20,641 nucleotides of DNA from a virus. Position numbers and translations under genes: made by a program. The stretch spans positions 1-20,641 of the IMG/VR virus record IMGVR_UViG_3300044834_000078; one strand, given 5' to 3'. Within the stretch, counting starts at the first letter, position 1. Each line of letters begins with the position of its first letter. This document shows positions 2,104 to 18,261 of this stretch, in pieces. A model generated the notes under the pieces. That model made no database searches. It had not been told where the DNA came from and saw only the letters and a list, made by a program, of their open reading frames with translations.

Positions 2104-2127
2104 CGTAAATGCACCTCTAGGGGTCTT

Positions 2128-2157: not shown

Positions 2158-2167
2158 GTTGGACGCC

Positions 2168-2197: not shown

Positions 2198-2223
2198 GGC
2201 CGACAGACGAGGACTTAGACGCG

Positions 2224-2415: not shown

Positions 2416-2423
2416 ACAAAGCA

Positions 2424-2455: not shown

Positions 2456-2478
2456 CTAGCCAGCCCGGAGGTTTCTAG

Positions 2479-2577: not shown

Positions 2578-2578
2578 C

Positions 2579-2764
2579 TTGGTCCCCGAACAGGTCTACT
2601 CGGACCTCAGCGACCTGACCAACCACGCCCCGCGACTACGACGGCACCTCGAACTTATCGGCCACCCCGCTGAGGCGGCAGTCCTGGGTGAGTACATCGA
2701 ACGCCTCCAGCGGATCGCCGTCGCCATGGACCTCTTGTGCACCATCCGGGCAGAGCCCCATTGA
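2579..2764 (+). CDS. Small helical protein of unknown function
   Basis: With the TTG start at 2579 this is a 61-aa acidic helical protein (PEQVYSDLSDLTNHAP..., HPAEAAVLGEYIERLQRI). The same frame is open back to 2402, but the upstream part has shadow-like composition and would overlap the excisionase gene and the hairpin, so the shorter form is preferred. The stop overlaps the next start (TTGA), placing it in the replication operon. No family is recognised. It may be an accessory factor for the zinc-finger protein and helicase that follow. Confidence 0.5.
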   Translation: MVPEQVYSDLSDLTNHAPRLRRHLELIGHPAEAAVLGEYIERLQRIAVAMDLLCTIRAEPH

Positions 2765-3264: not shown

Positions 3265-4631
3265 CTAGCGAGCCCACCAACCTCCGGCACAAGGCCGCCG
3301 GTCTCGGCTTGGCCGAATACCTCGGCGACGTCGAGACGTTCCTCCGGCGATACGTCGCCTTCCCGAGCGAGCACGAGCCGTGCGCCATCGCCTTGTGGAT
3401 CGCTCACGCGCACGTCGTGGACCAGTTCGATGTCTCGCCAATGCTGGCGGTCACCAGCGCGGAGATGCGTTCTGGGAAGACCCGAGTTCTGGACTGCCTC
3501 GAGCTCCTCGTGCCCGAGCCGTTCCGTGTTGTGACCCCGTCCGAGGCTGTCGTCTACACGGTCCTGGCCCAGCGACCCCGGCCCACCCTACTGCTCGACG
3601 AGGCCGATGCCATCTTCGGGCCCAAGACCGCCGAGCGTTACGAAGGCCTGCGGGCGATCCTCAATTCGGGCAATCAGCAGGGCACACCGGTCCTGCGGGT
3701 CAAGCTCGAGGGCCGGCGGCGGGAGGTCGACCGGTTCGACGTCTACGGCCCGAAGGCGATCGCCGGCATCGGCAAGCTCCCGGACACCGTCGCGGATCGC
3801 GCCATCCCGATCCGGATGCGACGCCGAGCACCGGGCGAGACGGTGGCCAAGTTCCGCCGCCGCACGGCTCGCGAAGAGGCCGCCGAGCTTTGGCTTGATT
3901 GGGCGAGTGTCACGGTTGTCACGGTTGTCACGGTTCCGGAGGCACTCAACGACAGGTCGTCGGACTCCTGGGAACCGCTTCTGGCGATCGCCGACCTTGC
4001 CGGCGGCGAATGGCCTTCCCGGAGCCGACTAGCTGCGGTCGCGCTCTCGTCTGAGGACGACATCCAGGTCTCGGTTGGGATCCGCCTCCTGGGCGACATC
4101 CACGAGGCGTTCGAAGACGACGACCACCTGCCGACCTCTGAGCTTCTGCGTCGACTCCATGACCTCGAAGAGAGTCCGTGGGCGGATTGGTATGGCAAGC
4201 CGTTGTCTGCTCGGGGCCTGGCCAAGTTGCTCGAGCCCTACAGGGTTACGCCGCTCCTGCGGCGGCTGGATGGACAGCGGTCGCGAGGCTACTTCCGCTC
4301 CGATCTCGAGGACAGTTTCGGGCGATATCTGACCACTTTGCAACTTGACGTTGGGTTAGGCCCCATAGACACCGGTAGTAACGGTCAGTCCGTAGCTGTC
4401 TCCGGAACCGTGACACCTGTGACAAGTGTGCCGGCCACGCTCAGCGATCCAGCGGCCGACACGGTAGCGGGTGATAACGACCTCGGAACGCCCACCGTCT
4501 CGATCGTTCCGGCTCTGGGCGATCTCGAGACGGTCGACTGCGACGACTATCTCGAACACCAGTCCGCCCACCGCCGCATCGCGGATCGTGGCTGGGTGTG
4601 TGATCTCTGCCACCCAGAGCCAGTGCCGTGA
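3261..4631 (+). CDS. DUF3631-type ATPase/helicase-like replication protein
   Basis: The GTG at 3261 gives 456 aa and a 4-bp overlap with the previous gene; the open frame upstream is out-of-frame sequence of that gene. Residues 25-75 (FLRRYVAFPSEHEPCAIALWIAHAH) and the Walker A-like SAEMRSGKT (66-74) lead to Walker B LLLDEADAIF (110-119). An arginine-rich stretch (DTVADRAIPIRMRRRAP) follows. This is the layout of DUF3631 proteins, common in phages and integrative elements of high-GC bacteria and usually next to a primase zinc domain. It probably unwinds DNA at the element's origin. The C-terminal 100 residues are low-complexity and end in CDLCHPEPVP, a possible half zinc site. A 9-bp tandem repeat lies near residue 217. 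Confidence 0.8.
   Translation: MTSEPTNLRHKAAGLGLAEYLGDVETFLRRYVAFPSEHEPCAIALWIAHAHVVDQFDVSPMLAVTSAEMRSGKTRVLDCLELLVPEPFRVVTPSEAVVYTVLAQRPRPTLLLDEADAIFGPKTAERYEGLRAILNSGNQQGTPVLRVKLEGRRREVDRFDVYGPKAIAGIGKLPDTVADRAIPIRMRRRAPGETVAKFRRRTAREEAAELWLDWASVTVVTVVTVPEALNDRSSDSWEPLLAIADLAGGEWPSRSRLAAVALSSEDDIQVSVGIRLLGDIHEAFEDDDHLPTSELLRRLHDLEESPWADWYGKPLSARGLAKLLEPYRVTPLLRRLDGQRSRGYFRSDLEDSFGRYLTTLQLDVGLGPIDTGSNGQSVAVSGTVTPVTSVPATLSDPAADTVAGDNDLGTPTVSIVPALGDLETVDCDDYLEHQSAHRRIADRGWVCDLCHPEPVP
3909..3935. repeat. Three tandem 9-bp repeats in the helicase gene
   Basis: gtcacggtt occurs three times in a row (3909-3917, 3918-3926, 3927-3935), encoding VTVVTVVTV in what looks like an interdomain linker. 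The frame is kept. Copy number could vary by slippage. As clustered short repeats in a replication gene they could also be iterons, but three 9-mers without an AT-rich stretch are weak evidence for an origin. Confidence 0.85.
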
Positions 4632-4834
4632 CGCTGGTCGCGCTGGCTGCGGCCTGTGACAACTGCCGTCGCCGGGGGATCCGAGGCTCGGCTTGGTACG
4701 CGGGCGTCTCTCCGGAGCGCGGTCCCGCCCGCCTGTTCTGCCGGCGACGCGCCTGCCAGCTCGCGCTCCGATTCTGGCTAGCCGGCTGCTACGCCGTCAC
4801 CCGATCGTCGCTTGCACTCGGGCCGTGGCAATGA
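4628..4834 (+). CDS. Small cysteine-containing protein
   Basis: A 68-aa protein. The GTG start overlaps the helicase stop (GTGA), and its own stop overlaps the HNH start (ATGA), so it sits in an unbroken coupled chain; this is the main reason to believe it. It has CDNC near residue 10 and a second cysteine pair (FCRRRACQ) near 38-43, which could form one zinc site, followed by a hydrophobic stretch (LALRFWLAGCYAV). No family is recognised. Confidence 0.6.
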   Translation: MTLVALAAACDNCRRRGIRGSAWYAGVSPERGPARLFCRRRACQLALRFWLAGCYAVTRSSLALGPWQ

Positions 4835-5211
4835 GGTACGCCGTCTGCCTCGGTTGCGGAAAGCTCTGTGCTCCTGGCCCACGCTGCCCGGACTGCAAGC
4901 GGGCCCGCGACCGCCTGTACGACGCGGCCCGTCCAGCGCACCACGCGGTGTATGCCACCGCAGAGTGGCGACGCCTGTCGGCTGCCGTCCGAGCCGGCGC
5001 GACGCGCTGCCACTGGTGCGGGAAGCGGACGACTCGTCTCGTCGGGGACCACGTCATCCCCGTAGAGGAGCGTCCCGAACTCGCGCTGGAACCGAGCAAC
5101 GTCGTGCCGTCGTGCTACGGATGCAACACGCGGCGCGGGAGAAACCTCAAGCCCGCCCGCTACCGCCAGCCGACGTTCGACGAGCTCATGGCTCACAGGG
5201 GCCGGAGCTGA
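4831..5211 (+). CDS. HNH endonuclease
   Basis: From the ATG at 4831 (ATGA overlap) the protein is 126 aa. The N-terminus has a zinc-ribbon-like cluster (C6, C9, C19, C22). The HNH core follows: CHWC (60-63), GDHVIP with D73-H74, the conserved N90 (LEPSNVVPSC), and CYGC (95-98) followed by the NTRRGR end of the fold. Small HNH proteins of this type lie beside terminase genes in many phages and are needed for correct DNA cutting in packaging in some of them. Here it precedes the small terminase gene by about 1.6 kb in the same chain, so a packaging role is plausible; a homing or defence nuclease is the alternative. Confidence 0.9.
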   Translation: MRYAVCLGCGKLCAPGPRCPDCKRARDRLYDAARPAHHAVYATAEWRRLSAAVRAGATRCHWCGKRTTRLVGDHVIPVEERPELALEPSNVVPSCYGCNTRRGRNLKPARYRQPTFDELMAHRGRS

Positions 5212-5213
5212 CC

Positions 5214-5597
5214 GTGGCCAGGCCGAAGGGCTCGACGACGTACCCCGATCCGCTCGCCGCGCTCGAGCAGGCGATCGCCGACCTCCAGGCTGACGACATC
5301 GTGCCCTCGGTCCGCGCCGTCGCGGTCCGGCTTGGCCTGGGCGAGACCGCAGTCCGCGACTACGCCCGATCGCACGGCGGACTGCCGTCGGTTATCCGAC
5401 AGTTTGCCGCGGACCAGGCGGCTCGCCGGGCGTCAGCATCGAGCTCATGTACAGCCGATTGCTCGTGCCGATGCCACGGCCCGTCGCCGACTACCTCACC
5501 CTCCGCGCCCGCGAGACGGGCCGTCATCCACGGGACCTGGCCGCCGAGATCCTCGAGCGTGCCGCCCTCAATCGGAGCCGTCGGGGTCGGACGATGA
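5214..5597 (+). CDS. Small HTH-like protein (C-terminal limit uncertain)
   Basis: A GTG two bases after the HNH stop opens a 127-codon frame. The first 70 residues are convincing: ARPKGSTTYPDPLAALEQA, then VPSVRAVAVRLGLGETAVRD, which reads as a helix-turn-helix. After about residue 75 the sequence becomes Ser/Cys/Pro-rich (ASSSCTADCSC) and overlaps a better reading frame from 5447 by 151 bp. Either the two genes truly overlap, or a frameshift has extended this one and its natural stop is lost. The function may be DNA binding. It could be mistaken for a small terminase, but a better candidate lies at 6804. Confidence 0.55.
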   Translation: MARPKGSTTYPDPLAALEQAIADLQADDIVPSVRAVAVRLGLGETAVRDYARSHGGLPSVIRQFAADQAARRASASSSCTADCSCRCHGPSPTTSPSAPARRAVIHGTWPPRSSSVPPSIGAVGVGR

Positions 5598-5656
5598 CCG
5601 CCCCGCAGCCCTCAACCGGCGCCCAGCGCGCCACCGCAGTGGAGAACACCCGATGA
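5447..5656 (+). CDS. Small CopG/Arc-like protein
   Basis: A 69-aa protein. Its first 45 residues (SRLLVPMPRPVADYLTLRA, then ETGRHPRDLAAEILERAAL) follow the strand-helix-helix pattern of ribbon-helix-helix proteins: a short basic beta strand and then two amphipathic helices. The C-terminal 20 residues are polar and disordered. It ends with an ATGA overlap onto the next gene. The call rests on pattern only, so DNA binding is an inference. Confidence 0.6.
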   Translation: MYSRLLVPMPRPVADYLTLRARETGRHPRDLAAEILERAALNRSRRGRTMTAPQPSTGAQRATAVENTR

Positions 5657-6279
5657 GTACCTTGTCCAAGGAAGCGCAAGCCCTCGTCGACTGGAAGCTT
5701 GGTCGGCCCACTACGGATTGGCCGGCACTGTCGGACGAGGATCGACGCGAGGTCGGCCGCCGGCTCGATGCCGGCCGCCGAGGGTCTCTCGGTAGCGACG
5801 AGCTCATGGCCGCCGAGAAGGCCATGAAGGATCGCCGCTCCGACGCCGAGAAGGCGGGCGACTGGACCGATGCCGAGCGGATCGAAGTCGAGATCGCGTT
5901 CGCCGCGTACGACATCGACATGCACGCCCTGAACGACGCCGCCCGAGAAACGCAGGACGCCAGCCGCGAGCTCGACCGCGCCAACCAGTCCCGCAACGTG
6001 GTCATCGACGGCCTTTACGACACGATCGGCCCGGACGCCGATGACCAGGCTCGGGCACAAGCGCGCAAGCGCCTGGCCGATGCCGAGTACAAGGCGGCCT
6101 TCGACGTCGTCGGCAAGACGAAGAACGCCTGGCTCGCCACGACCAACCGCGTCGGCTCGATCGCCGACGGCCGACGGTTGGCCGCCTGGCGCGCAGAGAA
6201 CGCGGCCAACCAGCAGGTGGTCCAGACCGGGATCCTCGACTCCCTCCGCTCGACGTTGGGAAGGTTGACCCGAGCATGA
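5653..6279 (+). CDS. Charged helical, coiled-coil-like protein of unknown function
   Basis: From the ATG at 5653 (ATGA overlap) the protein is 208 aa, almost entirely helical and rich in A, D, E, R and K. Long amphipathic runs cover about 75-115 and 135-205. The N-terminus (VDWKLGRPTTDWPALSDEDR) looks like a short globular part. Composition alone resembles phage scaffolding or accessory helical proteins, but the position upstream of the terminase genes does not match a scaffold gene, and no family is recognised. Confidence 0.7.
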   Translation: MSTLSKEAQALVDWKLGRPTTDWPALSDEDRREVGRRLDAGRRGSLGSDELMAAEKAMKDRRSDAEKAGDWTDAERIEVEIAFAAYDIDMHALNDAARETQDASRELDRANQSRNVVIDGLYDTIGPDADDQARAQARKRLADAEYKAAFDVVGKTKNAWLATTNRVGSIADGRRLAAWRAENAANQQVVQTGILDSLRSTLGRLTRA

Positions 6280-6719
6280 CCATCGTGCCGATGCCCGACG
6301 AGCTCCTGACTGCGGAGCAGATCCATGCCGCCAAGGCCGCCCTCGTCGCGACGATCGGCCAGCTGAAGCTGAGCGACGATCTCGGCGTCCGGTTCTACCT
6401 CCCGCCCGATCACCCGAAGGCGGCCGCCTGGCAGCCAGTCGAGCTCCAGACATCGGGCATCGATGCGCCGACCGGGTTCAAGCTGGCCGGGTTCCGCGCG
6501 CCTTCGTACTCCAAGGACGTCTGGGTCCGGTTCGACCTCTCACCGTCCGAGATGGCCAAGACCGTCTGCCATGAACTCCGCCACGCCTGGCAGTCGCGCT
6601 GGCCGTGGAAAGAGATCCGGGACGACATGGACGTCGGTCCCGACCCAGAGTCCGACGCCGAAGCGTTCGCCGTCGCCATGGTCGCGGGGACTCGCGGCGG
6701 GATGCGGATCATCCCGTGA
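6276..6719 (+). CDS. HExxH zinc metallopeptidase-like protein
   Basis: A 147-aa protein that starts in an ATGA overlap. The signature is TVCHELRHAWQ, with H99-E100-x2-H103, and 26 residues later ESDAEAFAVAM, where E129 is in the position of the third zinc ligand in gluzincin-like folds. This matches small one-domain phage peptidases related to the SprT/ImmA type. The preceding WVRFDLSPSEMAK could be the edge strand and support helix. Possible roles are cleavage of a host repressor or of an element protein. It lies immediately before the terminase genes. Confidence 0.75.
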   Translation: MTIVPMPDELLTAEQIHAAKAALVATIGQLKLSDDLGVRFYLPPDHPKAAAWQPVELQTSGIDAPTGFKLAGFRAPSYSKDVWVRFDLSPSEMAKTVCHELRHAWQSRWPWKEIRDDMDVGPDPESDAEAFAVAMVAGTRGGMRIIP

Positions 6720-6814
6720 AGGGGAGGGCGGTCGTAATCTCTGGAGCGGCCCAATCACCGTCGACCTCCGTCAACCCCTGTCGCGAAACTTCCGGGATCT
6801 CTGATGGCCGGTGA
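6716..6814 (+). CDS. Possible 32-codon ORF bridging to the small terminase
   Basis: A GTG overlaps the metallopeptidase stop (GTGA) and the frame ends inside the small terminase start region. The coupling geometry matches its neighbours, but the peptide (KGRAVVISGAAQSPST...) has no recognisable feature and could be chance. Its translation would carry ribosomes to 6804. Confidence 0.25.
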   Translation: MKGRAVVISGAAQSPSTSVNPCRETSGISDGR

Positions 6815-7184
6815 CTACCGCGGCCGGCGGCCCGCTGAGCGACCCTCGAACGTCCTGCCGACGACTGTCGGCCGCCAGAAGCCGCCCGAATGGCCCCTGG
6901 GGGCCGCCAGCAAGGACGAAACGGCCCTCTGGGCGGACCTGTGGCGTCGTCCCGTCGCTCACCTGTGGCGCCAGACGTACACGCCGACGATCGTCGTGGC
7001 CAGGTACGTCCGCGTCGTCATCGAGACGCCCGGATCTGGGTCCCTCGCACAGATGGAGAACGGTCTCGGGCTGACTCCGGCGTCGCTGGCTCGGCTCAAG
7101 GTGACGTTCGAGGAACCGCGCCCGACGCTCAGCGGCGCAGCCGAGGACGTCCTCGCCGCGGCCCGGGCCCGACGCGCGTCGTGA
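6804..7184 (+). CDS. Terminase small subunit (P27-like)
   Basis: A 126-aa protein. The pattern PPEWPLGAASKDETALWADL, VAHLWR, VVARYVRVVIE, then QMENGLGLTPASLARLKVTF matches the small terminase proteins of many phages of high-GC bacteria (phage terminase P27 group). The final LGLTPASLARL is the helix pair typical of the family. It recognises the packaging site and presents DNA to the large subunit. The large terminase begins in a GTGA overlap with its stop, the usual pairing. Confidence 0.8.
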   Translation: MAGDYRGRRPAERPSNVLPTTVGRQKPPEWPLGAASKDETALWADLWRRPVAHLWRQTYTPTIVVARYVRVVIETPGSGSLAQMENGLGLTPASLARLKVTFEEPRPTLSGAAEDVLAAARARRAS

Positions 7185-8686
7185 CCGTCCTGCCGGCTCC
7201 GGTCCCGGTCGGACTGGACAAAGCGCGCTGGCTCATGGCAACGCTGCCGAGCCCATCGGCTCCGACGACAGACCTCGTCCTGACGGATTCGCAGGTCGAC
7301 TTCCTGATCGATCTCTACGCGCCGGGCATTCGTCGCGGCGCGCTGCAGGGCGCCAAGGGCATCGGCAAGAGTCCGCTCGGCGCGTTCTGCGCCCTCGAGG
7401 AGTTCGCTGGCCCCGACGCGCCGTCCGATCCGCTGGTCCAGATCGGCGCCCTGTCCGAAGACCAGGCCAACTCGACCGTCTACAGCCTCGTGCTGCAGCT
7501 CGTGCGAGCCAATGACCGGCGCGTCGCTCAACGGCTCGGGATCGACGATGGCCGGGGCCGGCTGTACCTCGTCGGCCGCCCCGGCAAGCTCGAGGCCGTC
7601 ACGTCGGTAGCCGGCTCCCACGAGGGCGAGCGGACGACGTTTGCGGTCATGGACGAGACGCACCTGTGGACCCGGCAGAACGGCGGACATGCCCTCGCCC
7701 GGACGATTCGTCGGAACGTGGCCAAGGCCGGCGGCCGGACCCTGGAGCTATCGAACGCCCACGAGCCGGGGCTCGGCTCAGTCGCCGAACAAACCGCGGC
7801 CGACTTCGCAGCCGGCAAGCCCGGGATCCTGTTCGTCGCCGTCCGCCCCTCGCGGCTGCCCGAAGCGACCATGACCGACGACGAGCTCCGGCCGCTGATC
7901 GCCGAGGTCTATGCCAGCGCCCCCTGGATCGACCAGGCCCGGATGCTGGCCGAGCTACGCGACCCGGCGGTGCCCTGGGACGAGGGCGCCCGCTACTACC
8001 TCAACAGCCCGACCGCAACCGCCTCTGTCCTCGTGGACCCTCGCCGCTGGTCTCTTCTCCAACCGGCGACGGGGGCCCCGATCCCGGACGGAACGCGGGT
8101 CGGGGTCGGCTTCGATGGCAGCCACAGCCACGACGGAACGGCTTTGGTCGTCGCCGCCGAGGACGGCCGGCTACGGCTCGAACTCCTGATCGAGCGGAGT
8201 CCTAGCGACCCGCCCGACTGGACAGTGCCCCGCGCCAAGGTCAACGACGCCGTCGCCGCCGTGTTCGAGCGGTTCGACGTGGGTCGGATGCTGGTCGACC
8301 CATACCACTGGTACGACGAGCTCGATGACTGGAGCGGCCTGTACGGCGACTCGGTCGTGCTCGCCTATCCGACCAACTCAGGCCGCCGGTTCGGGCCGGC
8401 GGTCGATCGTTTCCGCACGGCCCTGGCCGAGGGCCGGGTGAGCCACGACGGCAACGCGGACCTCGCCCGCCACCTGGCCAACGCCCGGCTCCTGCGGACC
8501 GGTGGCCGGGCTGCCGACGACGGACATGCCCTGTTCACCCTCGAGAAGGCGGGGCCCGGACGGCTCATCGACGCGAGCGTGGCGGCTGTCCTGGCCCACG
8601 AAGCCGCCATGACGATGCCGGCGGGCGCCCCGCCGCTGTTCCGTTCGAACTACGAGCGCGAGGGATTGACCTTCGCACGCTCGTAG
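7181..8686 (+). CDS. Terminase large subunit
   Basis: The GTG at 7181 gives 501 aa and a 4-bp overlap with the small subunit. The ATPase domain has Walker A GAKGIGKS (57-64) and Walker B TFAVMDETH with D158-E159. The nuclease domain (about 305-475) has the three acidic metal-site residues expected of an RNase H-like fold: D312 (VGVGFDGSH), D373 (GRMLVDPYHW) and D464 (RLIDASVAA). Length and motifs are those of a complete, probably active packaging motor, which pumps DNA into a prohead and cuts it. That is notable because no portal or capsid gene follows. Confidence 0.93.
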   Translation: MTVLPAPVPVGLDKARWLMATLPSPSAPTTDLVLTDSQVDFLIDLYAPGIRRGALQGAKGIGKSPLGAFCALEEFAGPDAPSDPLVQIGALSEDQANSTVYSLVLQLVRANDRRVAQRLGIDDGRGRLYLVGRPGKLEAVTSVAGSHEGERTTFAVMDETHLWTRQNGGHALARTIRRNVAKAGGRTLELSNAHEPGLGSVAEQTAADFAAGKPGILFVAVRPSRLPEATMTDDELRPLIAEVYASAPWIDQARMLAELRDPAVPWDEGARYYLNSPTATASVLVDPRRWSLLQPATGAPIPDGTRVGVGFDGSHSHDGTALVVAAEDGRLRLELLIERSPSDPPDWTVPRAKVNDAVAAVFERFDVGRMLVDPYHWYDELDDWSGLYGDSVVLAYPTNSGRRFGPAVDRFRTALAEGRVSHDGNADLARHLANARLLRTGGRAADDGHALFTLEKAGPGRLIDASVAAVLAHEAAMTMPAGAPPLFRSNYEREGLTFARS

Positions 8687-8719
8687 AGACCGCGCTCCAC
8701 CCAGAAAGCAGGTAACCGG

Positions 8720-8807
8720 ATGACCATCCCGACCCTTCAGTCCACTGCCGGTGCCCTCGATCTACGAGACCCAACCCATCCGCGCGATCGAACTGGCCGA
8801 CTGGTGA
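8720..8807 (+). pseudogene. Possible deletion scar between packaging and tail genes
   Basis: An ATG with an aggtaa ribosome site opens MTIPTLQSTAGA, which looks like the true start of a phage protein. From about 8751 another frame reads PSIYETQPIRAIELADW and stops at 8805-8807, which looks like the true end of a different protein. The two would abut if a deletion fused the start of the first structural gene to the end of the gene before the tail chaperone. The first frame also stays open into the next gene, so a 33-residue extension of that gene is the alternative. Confidence 0.4.
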
Positions 8808-8818
8808 AAGGAACCCCG

Positions 8819-9118
8819 ATGACGCTGCCGATCATTTCACTCGCAACCGACTCGCTCGAACTCAACGGCACCGCGGTCGAGTACCGGTCGATGTCTCGGG
8901 CCGAGGCCCTCAAGCTTCAGGACTACAAGGGTCGTCCGGATGAGGCTGAAAACTACATCCTCATGTGCGGCACCGGTTGCACGGAGGACGAGGCCAAGGC
9001 GTTCCGCGACGGGTCAGATACAGCGACAGCGGGCCTGTTGATCGACGGCATCCTCGTGCTGTCGGGCCTCACCAATACGCCTCGTCGAGCTCGGTCGACC
9101 AAGGACAAGACCCGATGA
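8819..9118 (+). CDS. Tail assembly chaperone-like protein
   Basis: A 99-aa protein from the ATG at 8819, preceded by aaagga. The pattern VEYRSMSRAEALKLQDY...ENYILMCGTGCTEDEAKAFRD...AGLLIDGILVLSGLT matches the small protein encoded just before the tape measure gene in many siphophages. There it keeps the tape measure soluble during tail building. Such genes often have a longer product made by ribosomal frameshifting; here the stop overlaps the tape measure start (ATGA), which leaves no room for a second frame, so only the short form can be made. Confidence 0.65.
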   Translation: MTLPIISLATDSLELNGTAVEYRSMSRAEALKLQDYKGRPDEAENYILMCGTGCTEDEAKAFRDGSDTATAGLLIDGILVLSGLTNTPRRARSTKDKTR

Positions 9119-10587
9119 GTCGTCAGTTGGTCGTCGAGGTGATCGGCGATAGTTCCAAGCTCGGCAAGTCCCTCGACCAGGCCGGCACCAAGGCGCAGGG
9201 GTTCGGGAGCAAGCTCAAGGGCGTCGGCACTGGTCTGACCATCGGAGCCGGCGCTGCTGCGTTCAATCTCGTGACGACCGCCATCTCGATCGGGATCGGC
9301 AAGCTCGGCGAGGCGCAGCAGGCGTACCGCGACGACCAAGTCAGCCAGGCAAAGATGGCGACGGTGCTCAAGAACGCCATCCCCAACTGGAACGGGAACA
9401 CGGACGCGATTGAGAAGTACGCGACCGCCCAGCAGGGTCTCGGCTTTTCCGATGACTCGGTTCGCGACTCGATCAGCAAGCTCGTCGGCGTGACCCACGA
9501 CCAGAACGAGGCCATGGCTCTCAACAGCCTCGCGATGGACCTCGCTCGGGCCAAGAACATCAGCCTCGAGCAGGCCACGGCGATCGTGACCAAGGCCCAC
9601 GAGGGGAACGGCAAGGCGCTCAAGGGCCTCGGTATCGACATCGGCAATGCCAAGACGGGCGCTGAATTACTGCAGGCGGCCCAGGACAACGTCAAGGGCT
9701 CCGCTGAGGCGTGGGCCGCAACGTCTGAGGGCAAGGCAGCGGTCAGTCAGACGAAGGTCGCCGAGGCGATGGAAAAGGTCGGCATGGTGGTCGACAAGGT
9801 CAGCTCCGTCGTCATCCCAGCGCTCGCTGACGCCTTCGTGGGAGTCACCGACTGGATCGCCTCGATCTGGCCGACTGTGGGACCGATCGTCGGCAAGGTC
9901 ATGGACATCGTGGGCGAGGCAATCGGGTTCGTTTCAAAGAACGTTCTCCCCGCCCTCGGGGAGGCGTTCGGGTGGATCGTTAAGAACGTCATCCCGCCGC
10001 TGTCTGAGGCGTTCGGATGGATCGTTAAGAACGTGTTTCCGGCGCTGTCTGAGGCGTTCGGATGGATCGTTAAGAACGTCATCCCGCCCTTGGCTACGGT
10101 CATCGGCTGGGTGGTCGAGACCGTGCTACCGCCGCTGGTCAAGGCGCTGGGTTTCATCACGGAGAATATCGTGCCCGCCGTCGGAGCCGCGTTTAAGCTC
10201 CTGGGCGACATCATCGGGGGCGTATTCGACGTGGTTCCGAGAGTGATAAAGGGGGCCCTTAACTTCGTAATTGACATTGTCAACGGGATGATCGGGGCCA
10301 TCAACGGTATTCAGTTCCATGTCCATGCCGGGCCGATCAACTACGACTTCGATGGGCTGAACCTCGGCAAGATCCCCCGGCTCCACTCCGGCGGGATCGT
10401 GCCGGGGCCGATTGGCTCCGAGGTCCCCATCATGGCGTTGGGAGGCGAGCGCGTCTCGCCGCCGGGAGCGAGCGCTACCCCGCAGGTCGTGGTCCATATC
10501 CACGGTCACGTCATCGGGCTGTCCGGTGCCGATGAACTAGCCGAGCTCATTGCCCGGAGACTGCGCCTCAACGGCTCGACGGTCTAG
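9115..10587 (+). CDS. Tail tape measure protein
   Basis: From the ATG at 9115 (ATGA overlap) the protein is 490 aa. The N-terminus (VVEVIGDSSKLGKSLDQAGT) is typical of tape measure proteins. A helical region follows, then hydrophobic helices (about 230-410) containing three 15-residue repeats built on AFGWIVKNV. The C-terminus has HSGGIVPGPIGSEVPIMALG and a final HIHGHVIG...ELIARRLRLNG, both common at tape measure ends. A protein this short would set a short tail, roughly 70 nm by the usual 1.5 A per residue. No distal tail, baseplate or fibre gene follows, which is unusual. Confidence 0.88.
   Translation: MSRQLVVEVIGDSSKLGKSLDQAGTKAQGFGSKLKGVGTGLTIGAGAAAFNLVTTAISIGIGKLGEAQQAYRDDQVSQAKMATVLKNAIPNWNGNTDAIEKYATAQQGLGFSDDSVRDSISKLVGVTHDQNEAMALNSLAMDLARAKNISLEQATAIVTKAHEGNGKALKGLGIDIGNAKTGAELLQAAQDNVKGSAEAWAATSEGKAAVSQTKVAEAMEKVGMVVDKVSSVVIPALADAFVGVTDWIASIWPTVGPIVGKVMDIVGEAIGFVSKNVLPALGEAFGWIVKNVIPPLSEAFGWIVKNVFPALSEAFGWIVKNVIPPLATVIGWVVETVLPPLVKALGFITENIVPAVGAAFKLLGDIIGGVFDVVPRVIKGALNFVIDIVNGMIGAINGIQFHVHAGPINYDFDGLNLGKIPRLHSGGIVPGPIGSEVPIMALGGERVSPPGASATPQVVVHIHGHVIGLSGADELAELIARRLRLNGSTV
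9961..10095. repeat. Three 45-bp tandem repeats in the tape measure gene
   Basis: Units start with gaggcgttcg at 9961, 10006 and 10051. The first two are complete and differ at a few bases; the third diverges near its end. Each encodes 15 residues (pattern EAFGWIVKNV[IF]P[PA]LS). The repeats lengthen the hydrophobic helix region in whole helical steps and could change tail length by unequal recombination. Confidence 0.9.
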
Positions 10588-10588
10588 G

Positions 10589-11074
10589 ATGCTGGCGATG
10601 GCCAGCATCCCGCCCGTTTCGGAGCAGGAGGTCAGGGCGGCCTGGGCTGTAGTCGATCCATTCCTCCGGACGCTCGAGAGGGCTGATTACGCGGACGACG
10701 CACGGTTGCTCGACGGGATGACCCCGGACGCCCGCGCCCACTTTGATCGTATTGATGCGGTCAGAGTTTCGGGATTGACATACATTCCCCCGATCGCATG
10801 GAAGGTCAGGCAGGTGATGGGCCTGGAGGCCGCGACTGTGCCCTTGCTGCAGCTGCTTGCTACGGTCCACCTGTTCCCTGGCCCGGTTTGTCGCTTCCGC
10901 TATATGCCGGGCGTTCCGGTCGGGGGCGTCACAGTGGGTGGCGAACCGTCGTGGCACCTCGACCTCGAGTCCCACGACGGCCGGTGGCTTGTTGACCCGC
11001 GTGGCCTCGATCGAGGTCCGATGGTTGGCACGGCAATCATCGGACGGCCGGAGGCACCGCCCGCACGATCCTGA
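10589..11074 (+). CDS. Uncharacterised protein, NTF2-like by pattern
   Basis: A 161-aa protein starting at the ATG one base after the tape measure stop; an ATG at 10598 is an alternative. The N-terminal helix (EVRAAWAVVDPFLRTLERAD) and the C-terminal strand pair ending in HLDLESHDGRWLVDPRG resemble the helix and edge strands of NTF2/SnoaL-like proteins. That resemblance is weak. It is not a recognisable tail protein, although its position after the tape measure is where one would be expected. A strong inverted repeat begins two bases after its stop and probably ends the long operon. Confidence 0.65.
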   Translation: MLAMASIPPVSEQEVRAAWAVVDPFLRTLERADYADDARLLDGMTPDARAHFDRIDAVRVSGLTYIPPIAWKVRQVMGLEAATVPLLQLLATVHLFPGPVCRFRYMPGVPVGGVTVGGEPSWHLDLESHDGRWLVDPRGLDRGPMVGTAIIGRPEAPPARS

Positions 11075-11075
11075 C

Positions 11076-11102
11076 TGACCGGTAACCGCTTGTTACCGGT
11101 CA
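11076..11102 (+). terminator. Perfect 11-bp inverted repeat after the rightward operon
   Basis: tgaccggtaac / gttaccggtca surround a 5-nt loop (cgctt), two bases after the stop of the 161-aa gene. Its placement suggests a terminator, though no T-run follows. The symmetry would also suit an operator for a dimeric repressor of the promoter 60 bp downstream. Confidence 0.55.
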
Positions 11103-11162
11103 CCAGATCTAACTGTCCGTTAGGTTTGCGGCCCTTCCTCGCGCGTTTACCGCTGCCGGCCG

Positions 11163-11192
11163 TTGACGCCGGCGCCCTGTCGCAGCTAACGT
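11163..11192 (+). promoter_or_regulatory. Sigma70-type promoter upstream of the candidate RNA
   Basis: TTGACG (11163-11168) and TAACGT (11187-11192) are separated by 18 bp. The predicted start near 11199 falls at the base of the first hairpin of the candidate RNA, which supports both calls. It would serve the RNA and, by read-through of its terminal hairpin, the genes from 11302. Confidence 0.55.
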
Positions 11193-11196
11193 AGGC

Positions 11197-11284
11197 GGGC
11201 CGGGTACTAGACGGCTCCCAGACCGATAGAATCTCAAACGCCCCGCCCGGCTGCTGCTAGTACCAGCGTCGGCGGGGCGTTTGA
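11197..11284 (+). ncRNA. Candidate structured RNA with two hairpins and complementary loops
   Basis: Hairpin 1 pairs gggccg (11197-11202) with cggctc (11212-11217), including one G-T pair, and exposes ggtactag (11203-11210) in its loop. Hairpin 2 is a perfect 14-bp stem (11234-11247 with 11271-11284) containing a small inner stem (gctg/cagc) whose loop exposes ctagtac (11257-11263). The two loops are complementary over 7-8 bases, so they could kiss. Hairpin 2 is GC-rich and followed by gattt, so it may act as a terminator. A ribosome site and gene start lie directly downstream. It could be a small RNA of about 86 nt or a 5' UTR attenuator. No known RNA class is recognised. Confidence 0.5.
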
Positions 11285-11301
11285 TTTAGGGGAGGCCAGT
11301 C

Positions 11302-11676
11302 ATGGTCGCAGGATCCAAGCCAGTCATGATGCCGCGGTGGAACGGTCCAGTTCCGCCCGAGCATCTCGTGGCGATCATTGACGATCGCTGGGCGCAGCTC
11401 CACGTCGGGCTCAAGGAGAACGAGTACGGGACCTGGGTCGAGGATGGGACGAGCGAGCTCTCCCGTCGGCTATACGACACCCTCAGAGAGATGTCGGCGC
11501 TCATGGTCCAGGGGTTGAGCGAGACCTTCCCGGACGGGAGCGGGGATGAGGAAGCCGTCATGCAAGAACGCCTGTCGTTCGAGCTCGGACAGATGATCGA
11601 GGCTCGGATCAAGGCTTTTGCCATCGAGGTCGAGACATTCCGGGTGCAGGCTGACGGCAAGGCGGCGGCGTCATGA
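11302..11676 (+). CDS. Uncharacterised acidic protein
   Basis: A 124-aa protein with a strong ribosome site (aggggagg, 11288-11295) 6 nt before the ATG. It is mostly helical and acidic (LSRRLYDTLREMSALMVQGL; ERLSFELGQMIEARIKAFAI). The motif WAQLHVGLKENEYGTWVED may be a short beta element. No family is recognised. It is the first gene after the candidate structured RNA, which may regulate it, and its end overlaps the next start (ATGA). Confidence 0.7.
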   Translation: MVAGSKPVMMPRWNGPVPPEHLVAIIDDRWAQLHVGLKENEYGTWVEDGTSELSRRLYDTLREMSALMVQGLSETFPDGSGDEEAVMQERLSFELGQMIEARIKAFAIEVETFRVQADGKAAAS

Positions 11677-12278
11677 CGGCTGGCTGGACCGGTGGCGACT
11701 TGGCCGCCGGCGATGTGGCCTGGCGCGCGTGGCGACGGCTCGGAGTCGAGCCCTATGACTACATGTTCCTCGATAGTCCAATCCCGCCACTGCTCGAGGA
11801 GTTCGCCTCGTCGGTGGAGCCGATCGTCTCGAAGCTCACTCGTCTCGTCTTGGACGAGGCCGAGGCTCGGCTGTACGGTGAGGCCCGCGAGCGCGTCGTC
11901 GCTGCATCGGTACGCGGCGTCACTCACCATGTGCTATGGGCCGTGGTCGAGGCCGTGCGGGGAGAGCTGATGCGTCCGGAGCCCGTGCCGTTTACGCCAC
12001 CCCTAATGGGTGCGTGGATCCGGGGTCGGTCGCTGCCGCGCCCGGCTGTCCGCCGCCTGGGGCCTCGGCCCGAACCGACGTGGGATGGGCTCTGGCACGC
12101 CTTCTCTGGTGACTTCCGGATGCGGTCGCCGCGGGTCAAAAACGACATGGTTGGCCGAACCCGCTGCGGGGTCACGATCACCCTGCGGAGCGAGGGACAG
12201 GACGTCGCGATCGCCGACACGGCGCCGGGCGTAGACGCCTGCCGACGGTGCCAGCGAGGGGAGCCGAACCCCGCCTGA
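11673..12278 (+). CDS. Uncharacterised protein with C-terminal zinc-ribbon-like motif
   Basis: A 201-aa protein translated from an ATGA overlap. The N-terminal half is helical (PPLLEEFASSVEPIVSKLTR; HHVLWAVVEAVRGELMRP). The C-terminus has a separate small module: RTRCGVTITL..., then VDACRRCQRGE, giving one cysteine followed some 30 residues later by CxxC. This layout is common in small proteins of actinophages and integrative elements, where it usually binds zinc. The role is unknown. A clear terminator hairpin follows 22 bp after the stop. Confidence 0.7.
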   Translation: MTAGWTGGDLAAGDVAWRAWRRLGVEPYDYMFLDSPIPPLLEEFASSVEPIVSKLTRLVLDEAEARLYGEARERVVAASVRGVTHHVLWAVVEAVRGELMRPEPVPFTPPLMGAWIRGRSLPRPAVRRLGPRPEPTWDGLWHAFSGDFRMRSPRVKNDMVGRTRCGVTITLRSEGQDVAIADTAPGVDACRRCQRGEPNPA

Positions 12279-12300
12279 CCCATCCCGCTACGCTCATATC

Positions 12301-12332
12301 GACCCCGGCCGGATCCCCCCTCGGCCGGGGTC
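12301..12332 (+). terminator. Rho-independent-type hairpin
   Basis: gaccccggccg / cggccggggtc form a perfect 11-bp stem around a 10-nt loop, followed by tactctt. It lies 22 bp after the stop of the 201-aa gene and ends the two-gene transcript that begins near 11199. Confidence 0.7.
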
Positions 12333-12338
12333 TACTCT
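12333..12338 (+). promoter_or_regulatory. Possible -10 element for a leaderless transcript
   Basis: TACTCT (TAnnnT) lies 6 nt before the GTG at 12345, so transcription would begin at or next to the start codon. There is no Shine-Dalgarno sequence. The -10 abuts the terminator hairpin and no clear -35 is seen. Leaderless starts of this form are common in several high-GC phyla. Confidence 0.4.
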
Positions 12339-12344
12339 TGGTCT

Positions 12345-12446
12345 GTGGACGACAACCTTCGGGACGTCGCGATCGCGCTGACTACGGAGGACGACGTGGC
12401 CGAGATTCTCCACCGCCTTAGACACGTGGAGCCCGACCGTGGCTGA
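12345..12446 (+). CDS. Small acidic protein, 33 aa, possibly leaderless
   Basis: GTG start, sequence beginning DDNLRDVAIALTTEDDVAEI and ending HVEPDRG. It is acidic and predicted as two short helices, more protein-like than chance sequence. Its stop overlaps the next GTG by 8 bp, so the two would be translated together. The size would suit a small regulator or anti-host factor, but no family is recognised. Confidence 0.45.
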   Translation: MDDNLRDVAIALTTEDDVAEILHRLRHVEPDRG

Positions 12447-12645
12447 TCCCGACCGGGCTCAGCGCTTCGCGGATATCAACGAGCGGGCCCGCCGCGCGTT
12501 CCTCGAGGGCGCTGCCGAGGAGTGGCAACAGGCAAACGGACGGCCTCCGACCGAGGAGCAATTGCGCCGGATCCTGGCGCGGTATCCGGGGAACCCGCTA
12601 CGCCCCGACGGGACTGGAGTCGACAGGACGGCGACCGGAGGCTAG
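12439..12645 (+). CDS. Small helical protein
   Basis: A 68-aa protein (ADPDRAQRFADINERARRAF, EEWQQANGRPPTEEQLRRIL, ARYPGNPLRPDGTG). The second helix with PPTEEQLRRIL resembles small phage proteins of unknown role. It is preceded by the 33-aa frame with an 8-bp overlap, and its end overlaps the end of a convergent gene by 4 bp. Confidence 0.65.
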   Translation: MADPDRAQRFADINERARRAFLEGAAEEWQQANGRPPTEEQLRRILARYPGNPLRPDGTGVDRTATGG

Positions 12646-12854
12646 GTGCCCGGTCCGAGAACCTCCTCGATTTCTGCGTCAGTCATCGTGAGCATTGGAT
12701 TCGTGGCATCGGGGTTCATTCTCGCCGTCACGGATGCATTCATGTGGCGATAGAACGCCCGGAACCGCCTGAGGTAGTCCGCCTCGGGTTGATCTGTTGT
12801 GGTCGTCGCCAAGCGATCGGCCAGCTCGATGAGCTTGACGTGGGCATCGTCCAT
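12642..12854 (-). CDS. Small uncharacterised protein
   Basis: The ATG at 12854, preceded on its strand by ggag and a 4-nt spacer, gives 70 aa (DDAHVKLIELADRLATTTTD, YLRRFRAFYRHMNASV, MLTMTDAEIEEVLG). The frame stays open upstream, but that part is basic and shadow-like and lacks a ribosome site. The C-terminal TDAEIEEVLG is a typical capped helix. The function is unknown. It is the second gene of a short leftward pair. Confidence 0.6.
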   Translation of the reverse strand: MDDAHVKLIELADRLATTTTDQPEADYLRRFRAFYRHMNASVTARMNPDATNPMLTMTDAEIEEVLGPGT

Positions 12855-12919
12855 TCCGTCTCCACAAGATGATGGACTAATCCGCGAAGACGGTACGAGG
12901 TCTCCGTCTTTGTGACGTC

Positions 12920-13132
12920 TCAGGCGCGGCGGCCACGCTCGCGGTCGATCCACTCACGGCCTCGCTGCCAGAAGTCTCGATCCTGCCCGTCGAGACCCTC
13001 GGCGGCCGCGTGTGCCTCCCAGGCAGCGAGCCACCGCTCCGCGTCGTCCTGGGGCATTCCTGAGCTCGTCAGGCGCGCTTCCGCTGCAGCGCGGCGGGCG
13101 GCGTAGATGCGGACTGGCAGCGGCTCTAGCAC
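12920..13132 (-). CDS. Small uncharacterised protein, phage-type
   Basis: A 70-aa protein from a GTG start. The sequence YAARRAAAEARLTSSGMPQD, DAERWLAAWEAHAA, FWQRGREWIDRERGR has the regular helical pattern and W/D spacing of a real small protein; similar proteins occur in mobile elements of high-GC bacteria. There is no Shine-Dalgarno sequence, but TACCAT lies 7 nt upstream, so the message may be leaderless. It is transcribed leftward ahead of the 70-aa gene at 12642 with a 65-bp gap. Confidence 0.6.
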   Translation of the reverse strand: MLEPLPVRIYAARRAAAEARLTSSGMPQDDAERWLAAWEAHAAAEGLDGQDRDFWQRGREWIDRERGRRA

Positions 13133-13139
13133 GTGACCG

Positions 13140-13145
13140 ATGGTA
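13140..13145 (-). promoter_or_regulatory. Possible -10 element for a second leaderless transcript
   Basis: On the minus strand TACCAT is 7 nt before the GTG at 13132, the same geometry as at 12333-12345. No -35 is visible. Confidence 0.3.
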
Positions 13146-13269
13146 GAGCCGCCGGCCTGGTCTCTGCTACCGCCCTGGCGGTCAGCCTCCGCGGCTGAGG
13201 GGACCGCACCACCTTCCGCTCAACCTGCACGTCTTGACGGGTATGGTTAGAGTTTCGTTCGTCGCGTTG

Positions 13270-13292
13270 GTGCGGCTGGGTCCCAGCCGCAC
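13270..13292. promoter_or_regulatory. Strong palindrome upstream of the leader peptide
   Basis: gtgcggctggg and cccagccgcac are perfect inverted 11-mers around a single t; as RNA this would form a 9-bp stem with a 5-nt loop. It lies in the 205-bp gap 13133-13337, between divergent transcripts, 45 bp before the leader peptide start. It could be an operator for the right-end module or a hairpin in its 5' UTR. Further on, ccgg/ccgg and cctcc/ggagg pairings could mask the leader's ribosome site. A TTGACG occurs at 13234-13239 without a convincing -10; otherwise nothing is recognised in the gap. Confidence 0.45.
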
Positions 13293-13337
13293 AGGGGGAC
13301 CTCCGGGTCATGCCGGGGCGACAGGAGGAGGGCCACG

Positions 13338-13397
13338 ATGGCCGCCATGCAGGCCATCTCAACTAGCACCACATCACCGCGCGTTCGTTCACGCTGA
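13338..13397 (+). CDS. 19-codon leader peptide coupled to the next gene
   Basis: aggaggag (13323-13330), the strongest ribosome site in the right end, precedes an ATG that opens MAAMQAISTSTTSPRVRSR and a stop. The TGA shares its A with the ATG of the 197-aa gene (TGATG), a classical reinitiation junction. The 197-aa gene has no good ribosome site of its own, so its translation probably depends on this leader. An alternative is that the leader is an artefact and the site serves the larger gene from too far away. Confidence 0.5.
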   Translation: MAAMQAISTSTTSPRVRSR

Positions 13398-13990
13398 TGT
13401 GGCTCGTCGGGCCCGCGGTCTCGAAAGACGCCTCAGATGCTTCGACGAAGGCACCGAAGGCACCTCCTTCCGCTGATCCAGAACCCCAGGTGGTCGTCAC
13501 TCCGTCTGGCCACGACCATTGGATCGCAGAGGCACACGCGCCCTACTTCCGGGTGGAAGGGCGGGACCATGAGGTTCTGTCGGCCCTCTTGTCACAGGTT
13601 TGGGAGATGGTGGCGGCTGAGCGGGCGTTCGCCGAGCGGCGCGCTTCGCGAATGTCCGATCGGGGGGGTCGGCTTCTCGCAGACCTGGATGCTTTGGTCT
13701 TGGGACGCCTGCGACGGAGCGCCCGGACGGAGGTGAAGCGTCAGCCCATCGTGCTCGCCTTCGTGGATGCAGCGGCCGGCGTTCCGTCCGTAACTCGAGT
13801 GGCTGCCCGACAAACGGGCCCCGACGGCAGTCATTTTCGGGTGACGATCGCCGGCGATCGCCGGCAGGCCATCACGCAACTCGAAGCTCGACTTCGCCTC
13901 ATGCCGAAATTGCCATTCGACTACGACATCGTTCGGGCCGAACATGACGAGGCCGACCCGAGAGGCTACGCGACCGTCTACTCGACCTGA
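13397..13990 (+). CDS. Uncharacterised 197-aa partner of the HEPN-like protein
   Basis: After a low-complexity N-terminus (about 1-30, rich in A, P, S, K), two segments look folded. The first, about 31-75 (VVVTPSGHDHWIAEAHAPYF, DHEVLSALLSQVWEMVAAE), has a beta-beta-beta-alpha order. The second, about 112-197, has strand-helix order (IVLAFVDAAAGVPSVTRVAA, HFRVTIAGDRRQAITQLEAR, PFDYDIVRAEHDE). A vague likeness of the first segment to the HicB fold was considered but is not reliable. Its stop lies one base before the GTG of the HEPN-like gene, so the two form an operon. The function is unknown; an antitoxin or sensor role is inferred only from the pairing. Confidence 0.7.
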   Translation: MWLVGPAVSKDASDASTKAPKAPPSADPEPQVVVTPSGHDHWIAEAHAPYFRVEGRDHEVLSALLSQVWEMVAAERAFAERRASRMSDRGGRLLADLDALVLGRLRRSARTEVKRQPIVLAFVDAAAGVPSVTRVAARQTGPDGSHFRVTIAGDRRQAITQLEARLRLMPKLPFDYDIVRAEHDEADPRGYATVYST

Positions 13991-13991
13991 C

Positions 13992-14417
13992 GTGAGCTCC
14001 GTAGCTGAGCACCGCGCGGCGGCGGCCGCGAATGCCAATGTCGCCCTAAAGTTGGGCGGGATCCCGGCGAGTAATGACGCAAATGCGTGGGTCCCGACGA
14101 TCCTGTTTTACGCTGGGGTGCAGTTGGTCCAGGCGACACTGGCGCCGTTGGGCTGCGGCGGCGATCACGGTGGACGCTTAGTGGCCTTGCGAGGTCCCGG
14201 CCTGGGCCAGGCCGCGGAGTACTACAAACAGCTTCAAACGATCAGCAGCGACTGGCGCTACAAGGCTCTGCGTCCGTCCGACGCGGACCTTCAAGACGCC
14301 TGGGCTTACGCCACGGAACTCGCGCGGGCGATTGGCGAAGTATGGCCAGGACCGCTGCCTCCGCCCCAGCCGGTGCCTGGACCCGCCGGGACGGAGCCGC
14401 AGGAAACTGGCATCTGA
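13992..14417 (+). CDS. HEPN-like protein at the element's right end
   Basis: A 141-aa protein from the GTG one base after the previous stop. The pattern is that of a small HEPN-like helical family: EHRAAAAANANVALKL, then AWVPTILFYAGVQLVQATLA (residues about 32-51), a DHGGR motif (58-62), and YYKQLQTISSDWRY (77-90), followed by a last helix and a proline-rich tail. HEPN proteins include RNases in toxin-antitoxin and abortive-infection systems. The canonical R-x4-6-H motif is not evident here, so catalysis is uncertain. The stop codon is the first three bases of the right arm-site repeat, placing the gene hard against the attachment site, a usual place for cargo. Confidence 0.6.
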   Translation: MSSVAEHRAAAAANANVALKLGGIPASNDANAWVPTILFYAGVQLVQATLAPLGCGGDHGGRLVALRGPGLGQAAEYYKQLQTISSDWRYKALRPSDADLQDAWAYATELARAIGEVWPGPLPPPQPVPGPAGTEPQETGI

Positions 14418-14437
14418 CCGCAATTCTGACCGCAATT
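14415..14437. repeat. Putative arm-type integrase sites, right pair
   Basis: Two copies of TGACCGCAATT (14415-14425 and 14427-14437), identical over 23 bp to 314-336 and in the same orientation. They lie 81 bp inside the right core, compared with 57 bp on the left. The first three bases are the HEPN-like stop codon. Integrase binding is inferred from symmetry and spacing. Confidence 0.6.
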
Positions 14438-14518
14438 CGGATGGACCCGGCCGGACGGATTGGACGTATTCCACGCTTGTGGACGGCACGCCGACTCTCG
14501 TGAGCGTGCTCCGGTCCT

Positions 14519-14543
14519 TACACGATCTTCGGCGACAAGCCGG
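14519..14543 (+). repeat. attR core (right copy of 25-bp direct repeat)
   Basis: Perfect copy of 232-256. Read in the dehydrogenase frame it continues as G-D-K-P-A-E-stop, so the sequence just outside it (14544 onward) is the original end of the host gene. The copy has no gene in front of it and is a remnant of the split site. Confidence 0.92.
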
Positions 14544-16977: not shown

Positions 16978-18261
16978 TCAACGATCGGAGACCCTGACAA
17001 CGCCACGCGATGAACCCGTCCGATCGTGCCAACGGCGGGCGGAAACGGGTTGAGACGCTCGCGAGGAGTTCGCCACGTCCACGAATAGGCGACGGTAGCT
17101 TTGGCCGACCACCGACCAGAGCATTGACCGGCCATGCTCGTAGGCTGCCCGGCGAGCGCGATCCCGGGCCACCGAATCAGTCAGGGACCGAACCAGCGCA
17201 ACGGCCAAGGCGGCAGGGTCGTCAAAAGGCACCAGCGAGCCTCTACCGGCCGCCAGCAGTTCGCGTGCGTATGCGTATGGTGTGGAGACGAGCGCCTTGC
17301 CCGCACCGAGTGCATAGGCCAAGGTCCCCGATACGACTTGGTCTGGATTCGGGTACGGCGTGACGTAGACGTCCGATGCCTGAAGCCACCGACCTAGCGT
17401 GGGCTGATCCACATAGGCGTCCACAAACCGGACATGCTCATCGATCCCCAGCTCGGCAACGAGACCCTCCAGGGATTCGCGGTAGGCCTCGCCCTCGCGA
17501 CGACGGAGCTCCGGATGGGTCGCACCGAGGACGACGTAACACGCATTCGGAGCAGCGCGAAGGACCCTGGGCATGGCTCGAATAGCCAATTCATAGCCCT
17601 TGCCCGGCCCAAGCAGGCCAAAGCTCAGAATCGTCGGTCGGCCCGTCAGTCCAAACTCAGGCTTGACCAGAGCGGGGTCAACGAAGGGCAGATCCGGAAC
17701 CCCGTGCGGAATTACCAAGACCTTGTGAGGATCGATCTCGTATGCCGTCAGCCTCTCGGCCGCGGCCTGAGAGAGAACGACGAGCCGAGCCGAATGCATC
17801 GCCAGCTCCTCGACGATTCGCCGTTGCCGCGGGGAGGGCCGCGCGAGAACGGTGTGTAGAGTTGTGACCACGGGAGCATCGATCCCGACCGCAAAATCGA
17901 CGATCCACTCTCCGTCGAGCCCTGCATAGATCCCGTACTCATGCTGGAGATTCACGACGTCGTACCCCAGCTCATTGAGCCGCACGCCTCTTGCCGCGTA
18001 GTCGCTCCGGCGGTCCGACGGCAGTGTCAAACGGACCTCAGAGGCGGACGGCCATCGGTCGGAGTACGGGGAAATGATCTCCACCTCGATGGTTGGCTCG
18101 CCGCGAGGAAGCGGGCCTGGGCCAATCCGGTTGACGTCGCCATATCCTCGAACCGCGTGCACGAGATCGCGCGAAAACGTCGCAATCCCGCACCGGCGAG
18201 GCGGGTACGTGGTCACAACCGCCAACCGCAGAGCAGCTCGCCACCCTGTGCGCGTTGTCAA
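16978..18261 (-). CDS. GT4-type glycosyltransferase
   Basis: A TTG start at 18261 gives 427 aa; a TTG at 18225 is an alternative. It has the two Rossmann halves of GT-B enzymes: the N-terminal RLAVVTTYPPRRCGIATFSR (12-31), NLQHEYGIY (104-112) and VVTTLHTVLARPSPRQRR; then VIPHGVPDLPF (183-193), the donor-binding part SFGLLGPGKGYE (213-224), VLGATHP, and DVYVTPYPNPDQVVSGTLAY, ending with GKALVSTPYAYARELL. These match a retaining GT4 subgroup seen in Chloroflexota and related bacteria. It uses a nucleotide sugar, with acceptor unknown. It is upstream of the six-hairpin protein in the same direction. Confidence 0.88.
   Translation of the reverse strand: MTTRTGWRAALRLAVVTTYPPRRCGIATFSRDLVHAVRGYGDVNRIGPGPLPRGEPTIEVEIISPYSDRWPSASEVRLTLPSDRRSDYAARGVRLNELGYDVVNLQHEYGIYAGLDGEWIVDFAVGIDAPVVTTLHTVLARPSPRQRRIVEELAMHSARLVVLSQAAAERLTAYEIDPHKVLVIPHGVPDLPFVDPALVKPEFGLTGRPTILSFGLLGPGKGYELAIRAMPRVLRAAPNACYVVLGATHPELRRREGEAYRESLEGLVAELGIDEHVRFVDAYVDQPTLGRWLQASDVYVTPYPNPDQVVSGTLAYALGAGKALVSTPYAYARELLAAGRGSLVPFDDPAALAVALVRSLTDSVARDRARRAAYEHGRSMLWSVVGQSYRRLFVDVANSSRASQPVSARRWHDRTGSSRGVVRVSDR

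Follow-up and report, generated by a model that had tools for sequence, protein, structure and literature searches.

Two adjacent genes at the right end of an integrated element appear to form a conserved module in which a HEPN protein is preceded by a partner of an undescribed type. The C-terminal domain of the partner lies upstream of the HEPN gene at 22 of 23 loci of this HEPN family (in Chloroflexota, Acidobacteriota, three viral contigs and, tentatively, the Thermus phage Tsatsa). An MNT nucleotidyltransferase is nearby at none of these 23 loci, whereas it accompanies 27 of 30 ordinary PF05168 loci; a partner of the present type was found at none of those 30 loci, which belong to the same phylum. 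The HEPN two-gene module as such is already known; judging from the sequences compared, the new part is the partner, and no description of a HEPN protein with this partner was found in the literature or the family libraries searched. We lean towards reading the two genes as toxin-antitoxin or abortive-infection-like cargo, with the partner restraining the HEPN protein by binding.

The integrated element and the layout of the genes

The sequence examined (the window), 20,641 bp long, is a viral contig from IMG/VR in which an integrated element is flanked on both sides by host DNA (Table 1). The host is most likely a member of the Chloroflexota, because the best relatives (46-54% identity) of a host glycosyltransferase at 16978-18261 are from Chloroflexi MAGs, together with one other bacterium. 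According to Pfam and PHROGs, the element encodes the tyrosine integrase, an excisionase-like HTH protein, a DUF3631 protein and an HNH nuclease, and its structural and packaging genes include a terminase large subunit, a tape-measure protein and a minor-tail match. No capsid or portal protein of the 14.3-kb element (257-14518) was recognised in PHROGs, and the element is possibly a satellite, a degenerate prophage or a carrier of capsid genes too divergent to see. The integration target is the 3' end of a protein-coding gene, an aldehyde dehydrogenase, with a 25-bp att core. A sequence-only reading of this DNA had placed the genes under study against the right attachment site, and this was borne out by the perfect repeat, which begins 101 bp after the end of the HEPN frame. 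The 23-bp inner repeat is a probable arm-binding site of the integrase; it consists of TGACCGCAATT twice and overlaps the stop codons of the integrase gene and the HEPN gene.

Three tightly joined frames, as that reading had described, could be read directly in the sequence. The stop codon TGA of a mini-ORF (13395-13397) overlaps the ATG of the partner at 13397 in a TGATG junction, and the stop codon TGA of the partner (13988-13990) is followed by a gap of 1 bp and then by the GTG of the HEPN gene at 13992. Because homologues of both the partner and the HEPN protein keep the same order elsewhere, these two frames are taken as genes and not as chance ORFs. The mini-ORF had been read as a leader peptide of the module; conservation does not support this part of the reading, as no equivalent of the ORF was found in any relative examined. 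A strong ribosome-binding site, AGGAGGAGGG, precedes the ATG of the mini-ORF, and an equivalent site in L035, the closest chromosomal relative, directly precedes the partner gene itself. Since the relatives are without a leader and the site in L035 abuts the partner gene, the mini-ORF could serve coupling or stem from an indel artefact, and it is no established part of the module.

Table 1. Positions of the genes, domains and repeats in the window.
Feature	Position	Strand	Basis or remark
attL core	232-256	.	3' end of host aldehyde dehydrogenase gene; 25-bp perfect repeat TACACGATCTTCGGCGACAAGCCGG
Inner repeat near attL	314-336	.	23 bp, TGACCGCAATTCTGACCGCAATT; copy of 14415-14437
Tyrosine integrase of the element	335-1483	-	Pfam PF00589, E 2.3e-23; PHROG integrase, E 3.2e-65
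Shine-Dalgarno-like sequence AGGAGGAGGG	13323-13332	+	Read directly from the sequence
19-codon mini-ORF ('leader peptide')	13338-13397	+	Translation MAAMQAISTSTTSPRVRSR; function doubtful
Partner protein, 197 aa, putative antitoxin/neutraliser	13397-13990	+	Open frame; homologues elsewhere
Conserved C-terminal domain of partner, alpha-beta-beta-alpha-beta	13706-13987	+	Alignments A4/A6; leave-one-out rank 1, E 1.7e-7
HEPN protein, 141 aa, GTG start, putative effector/toxin	13992-14417	+	HEPN profile and predicted fold
Inner repeat near attR	14415-14437	.	23 bp, TGACCGCAATTCTGACCGCAATT; copy at 314-336; overlaps HEPN stop codon
attR core	14519-14543	.	25-bp perfect copy of 232-256, TACACGATCTTCGGCGACAAGCCGG

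The downstream protein as a HEPN domain

When the two proteins of the window were compared with Pfam, PHROGs, NCBIfam, PADLOC and PDB sequences, neither could be assigned to a family, and the window HEPN protein by itself had no match to Pfam PF05168. The family profile was more informative. Aligned by hhalign with 28 canonical PF05168 proteins, it matched over the full length with a probability of 95.2% (E 2.9e-8) and a score of 50.4, compared to 19.9 or less for 40 column-shuffled controls. The Pfam model matched seven of the 17 family members, with L067 alone above the curated cut-off (22.6 bits vs 22). Among the defence models of PADLOC, neither window protein had a match and the HEPN family gave two weak matches of single members.

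As modelled by AlphaFold2 (pLDDT 76.8, pTM 0.72), the window protein has the four-helix HEPN fold, with helices at residues 4-22, 29-53, 72-91 and 97-117. The C-terminal rows of the underlying alignment are out of register, so the confidence of the model is probably underestimated. In Foldseek, the top PDB matches were all HEPN proteins (probabilities of 1.00 for 2hsb, 0.99 for 4nqf, 0.99 for 1wol and 0.98 for HepT, 6m6u), with TM-scores of about 0.5-0.7 and weak E-values of 0.03-0.6. By profile and predicted fold, then, the last protein is a HEPN domain of the PF05168 kind, as the sequence-only reading had supposed from its pattern.

Nine positions are conserved in at least 18 of the 19 rows of the HEPN alignment: W33, F39, Y40, H59, R62, Y78, L81, R89 and Y90. 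The RNase motif RX4-6H is absent from these conserved columns, in which no Arg is followed by a His 4-6 residues on. The protein thus has the features of a Class II HEPN, namely a domain of the PF05168 type without RX4H and with a conserved Tyr, and in hhalign H59 and R89-Y90 align with the His and the Arg-Tyr of the canonical Class II proteins. The persistence of these positions here, where there is no transferase, speaks for a role in the HEPN protein itself.

The partner protein

The conserved part of the partner is formed by its last 90 or so residues, arranged as a helix, two strands, a helix and a strand, and the N-terminal 100 or so residues (13397-13700) were not found in the relatives. 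The sequence-only reading had left this protein unrecognised, and it remains so: there was no match to any known family or antitoxin family and no recognised DNA-binding domain. An AlphaFold2 model of the domain (pLDDT 66.9, pTM 0.64), built from an alignment of two sequences, those of the window and L085, resembled ferredoxin-like alpha+beta domains in the PDB (AcrB/MmpL subdomains, dimeric alpha-beta barrels, CcmK and RRMs), with TM-scores mostly of about 0.45-0.65 and no E-value below 0.01. It is likely that the modelled domain belongs to the ferredoxin-like fold class, any specific relative being unproven. Just one position of the partner alignment is conserved at 70% or more, and an enzymatic role appears unlikely because there are no conserved polar residues.

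Several apparent similarities of the partner were set aside. Two PDB sequence matches at E 0.21 were taken as chance, and so was a PDB profile match to a phage coat protein (E 6e-4), which was the sum over two repeats with E about 6 each. The likeness of the model to viral structures, many of them replication proteins, is one of fold alone, with no E-value below 0.01. The strand-strand-helix appearance of residues 30-75 recalls HicB; no Pfam match supports this reading.

Conservation of the pair

Because 20 of the 23 loci went into the partner model, the unbiased part of the evidence lies in the leave-one-out models and the three loci outside. In the former, the frame upstream of the HEPN gene ranked first at 19 of 20 loci (E 1e-3 to 1e-23), the sole miss being Tsatsa_34. 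The latter are Acidobacteriota loci that were found by the HEPN protein alone, and in two of the three the frame just upstream is the partner (E about 2e-6 and 4e-6); the third, L160, carries a HEPN fragment and is the one locus without a partner. Distances between partners and between HEPN proteins were correlated (Mantel r 0.61), with none of 10,000 permutations as high. Two adjacent small genes kept as a pair are a feature of type II toxin-antitoxin systems.

The phage counterpart of the partner gene (Tsatsa_34, L098 3076-3456) encodes a hypothetical protein and overlaps the HEPN gene. Its profile match is weak, and its predicted order of helix-strand-strand-helix-strand agrees with that of the partner domain. 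It appears that Tsatsa carries the same pair. The sequence-only reading depended on two points, a four-helix HEPN fold and the occurrence of the two genes together in other genomes; the fold was predicted and the genes co-occur in other genomes and viral contigs, so the reading withstood both.

Distribution of the family

Direct searches of viral contigs, plasmids, phages and genome contigs with the window proteins gave no relatives; these first emerged when whole genomes around the phylum of the host were searched. The HEPN search covered 177 genomes from the class of a related Chloroflexota MAG and gave two clear loci (E 4e-24 and 1e-18). An independent search with the partner in the same genomes had its two best matches at these loci (E 1e-10 and 2e-4), where the partner gene is directly upstream of the HEPN gene, and gave an additional match elsewhere (E 6e-4). 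In profile searches, the HEPN family was present in 10 of 400 Chloroflexota genomes, several with two or three copies, and in three of 327 Acidobacteriota genomes. The partner profile alone found nothing in Acidobacteriota, though two loci there carry the partner, and such a search is thus too insensitive to be informative on lone partners. Family members also occur in three viral contigs (L085, L086 and L097) and in an isolate, Thermus phage Tsatsa, whose HEPN protein Tsatsa_33 is 35% identical to L066 (E 5e-6). The family was not found in the plasmid collection, which likely includes few plasmids of these phyla.

Proposed mechanism and alternative explanations

The nine conserved positions of the HEPN protein, set against one in the partner, fit the expectation for an effector paired with a neutraliser that is no enzyme. 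For this pair we infer complex formation, toxicity, an RNA target, a trigger and a benefit to the element. The small alpha/beta protein of the upstream gene would be made first and would bind the HEPN protein, holding it inactive through occupancy rather than chemistry. Once freed, the HEPN protein may cut or bind RNA by means of a patch of H59, R62, R89 and Y90 that replaces RX4-6H. Disturbance of the cell by a rival phage, or loss of the element, may set the HEPN protein free, and growth would then stop. A putative antitoxin gene that comes first, with tight spacing, is the order usual in type II toxin-antitoxin and MNT-HEPN pairs, and the positions beside the att site in the window and between the repressor and the integrase in Tsatsa suit a cargo that is expressed in the lysogen. 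Several points count against this proposal: the HEPN protein lacks the known RNase motif, the partner has no recognised DNA-binding domain and matches no known antitoxin family, and the family is absent from the plasmid collection, although addiction modules are common in plasmids. A wider claim, that the loci represent a widespread undescribed conflict system, in which a HEPN of the PF05168 type with a His/Arg/Arg-Tyr site instead of RX4-6H is held under a ferredoxin-like binder, is one that we would put at slightly less than an even chance.

The HEPN protein might merely bind RNA, as the known RNase motif is absent. On this basis, the pair could be non-toxic and regulatory, with a HEPN protein devoid of catalysis and a ferredoxin-like partner that bind a transcript and regulate prophage or host genes. 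Non-catalytic RNA-binding HEPN domains such as MtlR have been proposed (PMC3710099), and the partner model had RRM-type folds among its matches in the PDB. However, HEPN proteins without the motif can still be toxic (PMC3710099), and the unrelated neighbours of the pair in many genomes and in unrelated phages, together with its two or three copies in some genomes, fit a mobile conflict module better. We regard the regulatory explanation as unlikely, at perhaps one chance in five.

It is also conceivable, with a still smaller probability, that the complex gives immunity to superinfection without self-toxicity or addiction, acting directly on the RNA or proteins of an incoming phage. The places of the pair in the window and in Tsatsa would agree with this, and HEPN proteins of the Tsatsa type were proposed as defence effectors expressed in the lysogen (PMC11437467). 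However, most members are in bacterial contigs that are not recognised prophages, and the upstream position of the partner suits neutralisation.

That the partner is a decayed MNT (a pseudo-nucleotidyltransferase) and the pair a degenerate HEPN/MNT is very improbable and was dropped: the gene order is that of MNT-HEPN and the alignments show a superficial likeness in strand order and in a C-terminal motif (...VDF.LVN...A..IWER), but the partner failed both the profile test (0.7% and a score of 13.7 in hhalign against 27 Chloroflexota MNT proteins, with reversed profiles at 13.0-13.3 and the best shuffled one at 14.4) and the fold test (no MNT in the top 50 PDB matches of its model in Foldseek), and it is without the GSX10DXD motif.

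Comparison with known systems

Two-gene modules with a HEPN protein as the predicted toxin and a partner on its 5' side have been described (PMC2701414, PMC3710099), and in MNT-HEPN pairs the antitoxin usually comes first, as in type II systems (PMC3710099). Returning to a HEPN effector restrained by its partner, the nearest of these modules is the Class II HEPN/MNT (PF05168 with PF01909; PMC7641770, PMC2701414), which likewise has two small adjacent genes with the partner first and a HEPN protein without RX4H, the His of its THDL and its RYP corresponding to H59 and R89-Y90 here. The difference lies in the partner, which here is no MNT by motif, profile, fold or Pfam match. The Class I pair HepT/MntA (Shewanella SO_3166/SO_3165) shares the HEPN fold and the gene order; in contrast to the pair described here, HepT carries the RX4HXY motif, and its neutralisation proceeds through AMP transfer to Tyr104 (PMC7641770), whereas neither RX4HXY in the HEPN protein nor GSX10DXD in the partner is present in ours. 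A HEPN protein of the MAE_18760 family, also a predicted toxin, has a non-MNT partner in the 5' position (PMC3710099), but that partner is a ParA/Soj-like ATPase and not a domain of about 100 residues without conserved catalytic residues. In Tsatsa (PQ109078), Tsatsa_33 belongs to the same family, and the gene immediately before it, Tsatsa_34, agrees with the partner in topology and stands in the lysogeny module beside the integrase, although it matches the partner profile weakly. In the publication of this phage the HEPN protein was presented as a defence effector with no partner named, and Tsatsa_34 was left hypothetical (PMC11437467).

Toxin-antitoxin-like pairs of the HEPN/MNT kind rank with the commonest. 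The canonical Class II proteins have no known RNase motif, their Tyr was proposed to accept AMP, and how a HEPN of the PF05168 kind acts without RX4-6H is an open question (PMC7641770). The present family keeps the His and the Arg-Tyr and seems to have swapped the MNT for an unrelated partner, which makes it a natural test of these residues without AMPylation. If the proposed His/Arg/Arg-Tyr site is true, the Tyr of Class II HEPN proteins belongs to the effector site and is not merely an AMP acceptor. The pair is testable at the bench, since it appears to be carried by a culturable phage, Tsatsa (on Thermus thermophilus HB8), and the proposal offers a candidate function for a gene that is now merely a 'hypothetical protein'.

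Genomic settings of individual loci

The surroundings of some members deserve mention. In L035 (2057-2715), the HEPN pair is followed immediately by a MazE-like/PIN toxin-antitoxin pair. In the viral contig L097 (5193-6369), the partner and HEPN genes stand among tail genes and genes that look structural, far from any integrase seen, and so differ from the pair in the lysogeny module of Tsatsa. At two loci (L079 1408-1801, minus strand, and L085 4846-5067, plus strand), the upstream partner is still an open frame, whereas the HEPN frame is broken or truncated. This is as expected if the HEPN protein is the harmful one; the breaks may also be errors, because both sequences come from metagenome assemblies. 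The Acidobacteriota fragment in L160 (1477-1764, minus strand) lies beside a frame-broken Phd/RelB-like antitoxin sequence, read by eye, and this region looks like a toxin-antitoxin graveyard.
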